Assembly: GCF_006334915.2 (NCBI RefSeq)
Contig: NZ_VDMA02000007.1
Span: 1-64,000, forward strand
DNA from: Microbispora catharanthi
GTDB lineage: Bacteria; Actinomycetota; Actinomycetes; Streptosporangiales; Streptosporangiaceae
Reading direction: 5' to 3'
DNA: 64,000 nucleotides
The position numbers and the translations under genes are program-made. The notes beneath the pieces were generated by a model, which searched no databases, was not told where the DNA came from, and saw nothing but the letters and a program-made list of their open reading frames with translations. Each line of letters starts with the position of its first letter. Positions within the stretch are counted from its first letter, which is position 1. Below, in pieces: positions 29,577-54,592 of this stretch.

Positions 29577-29577
<1 letters not shown>
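27007..29577 (-). CDS. pheT: Phenylalanyl-tRNA synthetase beta subunit
   Basis: The large subunit of the (alpha-beta)2 enzyme that charges tRNA-Phe. The 856-residue protein has an N-terminal OB-fold tRNA-binding domain (about 40-150, [13 protein letters not shown]). The B3/B4 editing region follows (about 210-400), then B5 with [17 protein letters not shown], the catalytic-like core ([10 protein letters not shown]), and an FDX-ACB anticodon-binding domain at the C-terminus. The ATG at 29577 overlaps the pheS stop by one base, so translation is coupled. Length is normal for the family. Confidence 0.97.
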
Positions 29578-30731
<1,154 letters not shown>

Positions 30732-30734
30732 TTA

Positions 30735-30893
30735 GTGCCCATCCCGTCAATCTTTGCCTCGTCGCGTCGCCCAGAGCGGCACCTCGCGGCGTTGTCGTCG
30801 TCGCCGATAACGCTGTTATCGACTCCTCCTCCGCCTTGCGATACACCACTCTGGACACCGCTCCGTCCGGGCAAATCTTGCCGGTCAGGGCAC
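30735..30893 (+). repeat. Fold-back element, copy 1
   Basis: A 159-bp element. Its first and last about 58 bases are imperfect inverted repeats of each other: GTGCCC...AATCTTTGCC...CCAGAGCGG at the left answers CCACTCTGG...GGGCAAATCTTG...GGGCAC at the right. The centre holds a separate small hairpin, CGATAAC-GCT-GTTATCG. A second copy lies in the opposite orientation at 54307-54519, with conserved arms and a different centre. It codes for nothing convincing and lies between the histidine kinase gene and pheS. Confidence 0.8.
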
Positions 30894-30947
30894 CCGTCCG
30901 ATCAGCCCACCGGGCCGTCCTTCGCGCGATCGGCCTGTGGAAAAGGC

Positions 30948-53785: not shown

Positions 53786-54292
53786 TCAGACGGCGAGCAG
53801 GGTGCGGACGTCCAGGCCCGGCAGCCGGTCGCGGCCGGAGAGGAAGGACAGCTCCATCAGGAAGGACACGGCCACGACCTCCGCGCCCGTCCTTCTGACC
53901 AGCTCCACGGCCGCCCGGGCCGTGCCGCCCGTGGCGAGGACGTCGTCCACGATCAGGACCCGGTCGCCGGGGTCGAAGGCGTCGGCGTGCACCTCGATCG
54001 TCGCGGAGCCGTACTCGAGATCATAGGACGCCTCGTACGTGTCGGCGGGCAATTTGCCCTTTTTGCGCACTGGTACGAACCCGGCGCCGCTGCGGTAGGC
54101 CACCGGCGCGGCGAGGATGAAGCCCCGCGCCTCGATGCCGACCACCTTGTCGAACGCCAGGCCGTCCCCGAGCTCGCCCACGACCTGCGTGAAGGCCGCG
54201 TGGTCCGCCAGCAGCGGGGTGATGTCCTTGAAGAGGATGCCCGGCTTGGGGTAGTCCGGGACATCCCTGATAAGAGCCGTCCAGTCAGTCAC
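53786..54292 (-). CDS. apt: Adenine phosphoribosyltransferase
   Basis: Salvages adenine to AMP with PRPP. The 168-residue protein has DVPDYPKPGILFKDITPLL at the N-terminus, GIEARGFILAAPVA, and the PRPP-binding VLIVDDVLATGGTARAAVEL. GTG at 54292 was chosen because the family begins at this point; the longer frame to 54364 runs into a fold-back repeat. The repeat ends 15 bases before the start codon. Confidence 0.95.
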   Translation of the reverse strand: MTDWTALIRDVPDYPKPGILFKDITPLLADHAAFTQVVGELGDGLAFDKVVGIEARGFILAAPVAYRSGAGFVPVRKKGKLPADTYEASYDLEYGSATIEVHADAFDPGDRVLIVDDVLATGGTARAAVELVRRTGAEVVAVSFLMELSFLSGRDRLPGLDVRTLLAV

Positions 54293-54306: not shown

Positions 54307-54519
54307 GTGCCGCGACCGGCGAGATCCGCCCGGACGGAGCGGTGTCCAGAGTGGTGCATCGCAAGGCGGAGGAGGAGCTCGTCGCCGGAGGCTACGGGCG
54401 GTCTTCCCGGGCCCCGCGCAGATTCCGAGCTCGCGAGGAATCTCCGCGGGTGGGGGCGACAACGCGGCGAGGTGCCGCTCTGGGCGACGTGACGGGGCAA
54501 AGATCGGCGGGAGGGGCAC
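54307..54519 (-). repeat. Fold-back element, copy 2
   Basis: A 213-bp element in the opposite orientation to copy 1. Its arms match copy 1 closely over about 58 bases each. On the minus strand the left arm runs GTGCCC...ATCTTTGCC...CCCAGAGCGGCACCTCGC. The right arm contains CCTCCTCCGCCTTGC and ACTCTGGACACCGCTCC. The centre is longer and different, with its own inverted pair AGATTCC/GGAATCT. It fills most of the gap between secF and apt. Confidence 0.8.
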
Positions 54520-54543
54520 CGACAGGGAGACCGGAACACGAAA

Positions 54544-54576
54544 GCGCCCCCGGAACCGGGCGGGTTCCGGGGGCGC
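54544..54576 (-). terminator. Terminator after secF
   Basis: A 14-bp stem (GCGCCCCCGGAACC / GGTTCCGGGGGCGC) with a 5-base loop, followed by TTT on the minus strand, just after the secF stop. Confidence 0.75.
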
Positions 54577-54592
54577 CTGCGACGAGCCGGGA

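Follow-up and report, generated by a model that had tools for sequence, protein, structure and literature searches.

The imperfect palindrome near pheS in the window (the whole stretch of 64,000 nucleotides of Microbispora catharanthi DNA analysed here) is a mobile insertion of roughly 160 bases without genes of its own, and by the features tested the element is a MITE. MITEs are usually held to need their ends alone, the interior being disposable; here, across many actinomycete genera, it is the interior that stays constant and the ends that can be exchanged. The new aspect is a MITE variant whose core is conserved, covarying and strand-specific and is combined with interchangeable ends. We propose, with a probability of about 0.7, that it is a non-autonomous MITE moved in trans by a DDE transposase and that its core is selected as the single-stranded fold of one strand.

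Two copies in the window

The preliminary description had reported an imperfect palindrome with GTGCCC (30735) and GGGCAC (30893) ends, a central CGATAAC/GTTATCG hairpin and arms common to a second stretch in opposite orientation, all of which is borne out (Table 1). The palindrome is 159 nt long, and its hairpin reads CGATAAC-GCT-GTTATCG. Copy 1, whose extent may alternatively be drawn as 30735-30895, is intergenic, with a PAS/histidine-kinase gene on one side and pheS on the other. Copy 2 is its inverted relative, both arms being 90-92% identical, and has a longer centre in which a second hairpin is present. Folded as RNA, the minus strand of copy 1 reaches -87.3 kcal/mol (z -8.7; 0 of 200 shuffles equal), and the plus strand -61.7 kcal/mol (z -4.0). 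A protein-coding reading of the element (MHRKAEEE..) was ruled out, since the centre lengths differ out of frame. A separate strong GC hairpin (54539-54581, CCCCCGGAACC..GGTTCCGGGGGC) adjoins copy 2; it is also kept in congeners without copy 2 and is likely to serve the secF-like gene as terminator.

Table 1 Features of the two element copies and of their neighbours in the window.
Feature	Position	Strand	Remarks
Copy 1, short form, 159 bp	30735..30893	- (better-folding R strand = minus)	between histidine-kinase gene and pheS
Target-site TA retained, left junction of copy 1 (TTTA^GTCC)	30733..30734	.	empty-site alignment
Left terminal repeat of copy 1, type A 'L end' (GTGCCCATCCCGTCAATCTTTGCCTC)	30735..30760	+	
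Right terminal repeat of copy 1, type A 'R end' (GTGCCCTGACCGGCAAGATTTGCCC on minus)	30869..30893	-	
Copy 1 core motif, 5' half, TCGCAAGGCGGAGGAGGAG	30823..30841	-	
Copy 1 core motif, 3' half, CGACGACGACAACGCcGCGA	30784..30803	-	
Copy 1 apical hairpin, CGATAAC-agc-GTTATCG	30805..30821	-	stem covaries between copies
Copy 2, long form, 213 bp	54307..54519	+ (R strand on plus)	between secF-like gene and apt
Copy 2 core motif, 5' half (TCGCAAGGCGGAGGAGGAG)	54359..54377	+	
Copy 2 extra hairpin of long form (CCCCGCGCAGATTCC / GGAATCTCCGCGGGTGGGG)	54412..54455	+	
Copy 2 core motif, 3' half (CGACAACGCGGCGA)	54457..54470	+	
pheS (phenylalanyl-tRNA synthetase alpha)	29577..30677	-	neighbour outside element; Pfam
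apt-like phosphoribosyltransferase	53786..54292	-	neighbour outside element; Pfam; open frame listed to 54364

Insertion and target site

The pheS site is precisely empty in 12 of 14 congeneric genomes (..TTTAGTCCGATC..; TTTA^GTCC vs TTTA[element]GTCC), the source genome reading ..TTTA[GTGCCC..GGGCAC]CCGTCCGATC.. at the same place; the remaining two congeners hold one degraded copy and one remnant. At the locus of copy 2, the element is missing or different in other congeneric genomes. In the empty-site alignment, the right junction of copy 1 has CC at 30894-30895, where the second TA is expected.

Ends were identified in 113 of 134 distinct copies, the usual context being C-TA-[element]-TA-G: TA flanks 73 of the 113 on both sides, in 68 cases as CTAG/CTAG. 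A core-deleted copy (L419 in genome G201) reads TTA[GGG..CCC]TAA, and its flanks therefore fit a duplication of 2 bp (TA), not of 4 bp. The copies have no coding capacity, carry terminal inverted repeats, are smaller than 600 bp and cluster, with almost all end types, in two length groups of 156-169 and ~211-219 bp. Genome G071 holds 13 pairs of element ends, of which 10 delimit full-length elements (167-168 bp), several of them identical, at unrelated sites and always as CTAG[..]CTAG. Identical full-length copies at unrelated CTAG sites imply that the family moved recently. The fold-back (MITE-like) reading of the preliminary description is upheld by these further copies, by the exact empty sites, by the constant TA/CTAG target and by the recent burst.

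Several Microbispora genomes (L073, L098, L113, L034) have, at a single syntenic site, a second, rearranged partial copy directly after the element. Two ends of the same type were seen in L369 and L409 (G071:C86) and in G041:C5:74167-74379, which fits inversion or arm-to-arm conversion within the palindrome.

Distribution across actinomycetes

The source genome yields 12 BLAST matches with E below 0.001, so that the element, previously said to be present twice, has about 10-12 clear copies there. Among the matches listed, the nearest named relatives are Microbispora, Microtetraspora, Sphaerimonospora and Planotetraspora, and an exact 22-base core string recurs in Streptosporangiaceae, Pseudonocardia, Kribbella, Sporichthya, Propionibacteriales, Micrococcales, Phytoactinopolyspora and Streptomyces. 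A covariance model built from 42 cores (cut-off E <= 1e-4) found the element in 71 of 297 sampled genomes of the class, representing 22 of 114 sampled genera; at most 13 candidates were scored per genome, and copy numbers are lower bounds. A phage collection gave no match and plasmids gave three weak ones, all in Streptomyces. No Rfam 15 covariance model matched at either gathering or relaxed thresholds, and our search of the open literature (subscription literature and ISfinder were outside its scope) found no description of the family. The covariance model makes the element annotatable, and many intergenic palindromes of Streptosporangiaceae, Kribbella, Pseudonocardia and Streptomyces are accounted for by it.

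A conserved core that folds better on one strand

Between clusters, the outer 20-base blocks are 31-34% identical (ungapped, near random) and the inner arms 53-57%, while the motif halves are 93% (TCGCAAGGCGGAGGAGGAG) and 84% (CGACGACGACAACGCnGCGA) identical, the motif figures being somewhat favoured by sampling, as the copies compared were partly gathered by motif search. The same motif was recovered by whole-core searches with both the covariance model and BLAST. Covariation, which the preliminary description had named as a check, is present in both of the stems that adjoin the motif. In 22 clusters with dissimilar arms, own arms pair on average at -34.4 kcal/mol compared with -22.1 kcal/mol for swapped arms, and in 30 dissimilar loops the corresponding values for the apical stem are -11.4 and -5.1; neither difference was equalled in 10,000 permutations.

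The strand carrying GGAGGAGGAG and GACGACGAC, here called the R strand, has a motif in which three tandem G.A/A.G steps, enclosed by G-C pairs, are able to stack. In L079 and L143 (Kribbella and a relative), GGAGGAGGAG stands opposite CTCCTCCTCC and ordinary pairs replace the tandem G.A steps. With RNA parameters the R strand outfolds its complement in all 38 clusters, and with DNA parameters in 38 of 39. Its arm mismatches are mostly G.U rather than A.C (104 vs 9) and G.A rather than C.T (91 vs 3), counts which include conserved columns repeated over clusters and are not independent events; the strand asymmetry of the outer ends is much smaller (66/40 and 62/36). The core has been retained alongside ends of at least ten kinds. 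A near-constant fold set against widely differing ends across species suggests that the fold itself has some role.

The core-deleted forms of G071 are single copies with differing breakpoints, and it is the full-length form that has multiplied, which is in line with core-aided transposition. Near-identical core-less type A forms of ~54 bp, with the two end repeats back to back, were observed at unrelated sites in several genomes (L242, L250, L261, L263, L309). They may have arisen by transposition of a short form or by slippage deletions that recurred, and because of them the core may be dispensable for mobility.

Terminal repeats and candidate transposases

Genomes carrying the element hold IS5-family elements (a DUF4096 ORF plus a DDE ORF) and IS701 elements, also at CTAG. 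The five IS5 copies of G201, about 1.02 kb long, have the ends CTAGGGAGTGTCTGACGGATC; the type B mini-element ends are CTAGGGAGTGTCTGACAAATG, and the two match partially, their 16 terminal bases being identical (CTAGGGAGTGTCTGAC). Two 945-bp Microbispora IS5 elements match type B ends within three mismatches. Among published relatives, mycobacterial IS5 elements such as ISMysh01 carry CTAG repeats (PMC9241763), and 2-bp duplications are common in IS427-group elements (PMC3281130). The shared 16 bases, taken together with the CTAG targets and 2-bp duplications of these relatives, make IS5-type transposases well supported candidates for the trans-mobilisation of type B and similar ends.

The type A ends, i.e. 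those in the window, read CTAGTGCC.. and the IS5/IS427 terminal sequence reads CTAGGGnnTGTCT.., so that only the CTAG/TA target is common to both; for type A ends, mobilisation by IS5-type enzymes is putative. A search of the genus and of three further genomes (G041-G043) for an autonomous type A element returned mini-element spacings only and no gene-sized copy. An autonomous transposon with the same ends, for which the preliminary description had suggested looking, has thus a partial counterpart (the first ~16-20 bases) in another end class and none in type A. IS701 elements were rejected as an end match, their ends being different (CTAGTACTCCAGCC..). They insert at CTAG (L174, L186 and other loci), in L186 exactly at the border of a mini-element; their presence at CTAG in element-carrying genomes indicates that this target is common to several transposon families.

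Discussion

We propose that a DDE transposase acting in trans would insert the element at TA, preferably inside CTAG, and that the terminal inverted repeats would have diverged along with the transposase that moves them, one end class apparently copying the ends of IS5-family (IS427-like) transposons. The inner part would be selected as a one-strand fold, in which the invariant motif, with its three tandem G.A/A.G steps, lies between covarying stems. As our best guess, the fold has a cis role in mobility, e.g. as a hairpin or cruciform by which the ends of a very short element are brought close to each other. Some details count against the model: the genus and the three further genomes yielded no autonomous type A element, copy 1 lacks an intact TA on its right, and the 16-base IS5 match is partial and concerns type B rather than type A. 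Were movement to require the fold, otherwise ordinary DDE transposition would here involve a structured element acting in cis. A wider idea, which we hold tentatively and at less than even odds, is that of a selfish, class-wide element which needs a strand-specific folded core in order to move, this core having been combined with many terminal-repeat/transposase systems. It would amount to a previously undescribed kind of structured transposition module that is portable, or of mobile structured RNA.

The core could instead be a passenger, a structured RNA working in trans or a transcript protector or insulator that hitch-hikes in the MITE and benefits the MITE or its host in a way that has nothing to do with transposition; as an RNA, the core would represent a mobile structured RNA that is widespread and so far undescribed. 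An invariant internal motif, covarying stems and one-strand tolerance of G.U and G.A are typical of structured RNAs, and retention of the core with so many kinds of ends suits cargo as well. However, no Rfam family corresponds to it, and tandem neighbouring genes show no orientation bias (15 co-oriented vs 18 opposed, genes being called by a simple GC-frame heuristic); we consider the passenger reading unlikely. The same gene-orientation test puts 36 of 83 copies between convergent genes, a preference that would follow if insertions keep clear of promoters and fall into CTAG at stop codons. Of the structured regulatory RNA of the preliminary description, the structured aspect is borne out in part, the inner part covarying strongly and folding strand-specifically; regulation of pheS or apt finds no support. 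Both genes have the element upstream, with a strong hairpin, yet a cis-acting leader RNA is hardly credible, because the empty sites already largely refute it: most congeners are without the element at both genes. Moreover, the two copies are oppositely oriented relative to these genes, the family has no preferred orientation to neighbouring genes, and dozens of copies lie in unrelated contexts.

Covariation without function would arise if template-switch correction of quasi-palindromes kept the arms complementary, the likeness of the cores then reflecting recent horizontal spread. Palindromes are prone to such correction, related clusters have a common history, and the copies with both arms of one type described above (L369/L409, G041:C5:74167-74379) would be among its products. 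The motif mismatches, however, have escaped correction throughout the class even as arms and ends diverged to 31-57%, and the excess of G.U over A.C and of G.A over C.T, even if inflated by repeated conserved columns, is unexpected from a strand-symmetric process. We regard this explanation of the whole pattern as decidedly improbable; palindrome-correcting template switching could nevertheless be the source of part of the covariation. Movement as a folded single strand by an HUH transposase (IS200/IS605, RAYT-like), as for REP sequences, would agree with a strand-specific hairpin with conserved mismatches and with the lack of an intact duplication at copy 1. The orientation of ~10 of 12 copies in G201 also fits a replication-strand bias (origin and terminus placed roughly from sampled GC skew), but in a second complete genome, G010, only ~6 of 11 agree, both samples being small and the origin estimated. 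REP surveys give GTAG or CGTC tags, not CTAG (PMC3733652). Since most copies have TA duplicated on either side, both termini are long inverted repeats, and ends are shared with IS5-family DDE elements, an HUH route appears very improbable, and movement in trans by a DDE transposase is the reading we prefer.

Among known systems, the attC sites of integrons are imperfect palindromes that work as one folded strand and in which extrahelical or mismatched features are conserved. The element resembles them as an imperfect palindrome with conserved mismatches; unlike them, it has neither an integron integrase context nor attC core sites and is inserted as dispersed repeats. REP sequences mobilised by RAYT/TnpA-REP (PMC3733652, PMC8266576) are likewise hairpins outside genes, in which stem mismatches are conserved and which may be recognised in folded, single-stranded form, but the element is four to eight times longer, has long inverted repeats, and any link to a tyrosine transposase is putative. 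The REP/BIME definition (a 20-40 bp palindrome with GTAG at one end) does not describe a 160 bp element with CTAG at both ends, and the REP survey names no actinobacterial REPs. The element shares with the IS5 family and its IS427 group the CTAG/TA target and, in type B, the first 16 bases of the ends; it differs in having no internal transposase and, in type A, ends that match no IS5 element found. Like those MITEs of bacteria that stem from insertion sequences (review: PMC10969869), it is non-coding, intergenic and multi-copy, with terminal inverted repeats, a short target duplication and a stable stem-loop. Unlike these, it is GC-rich and actinomycete-wide, has a strand-specific fold with covarying stems, and is conserved in its interior and variable at its ends, the reverse of what an element defined by its ends only would lead one to expect.
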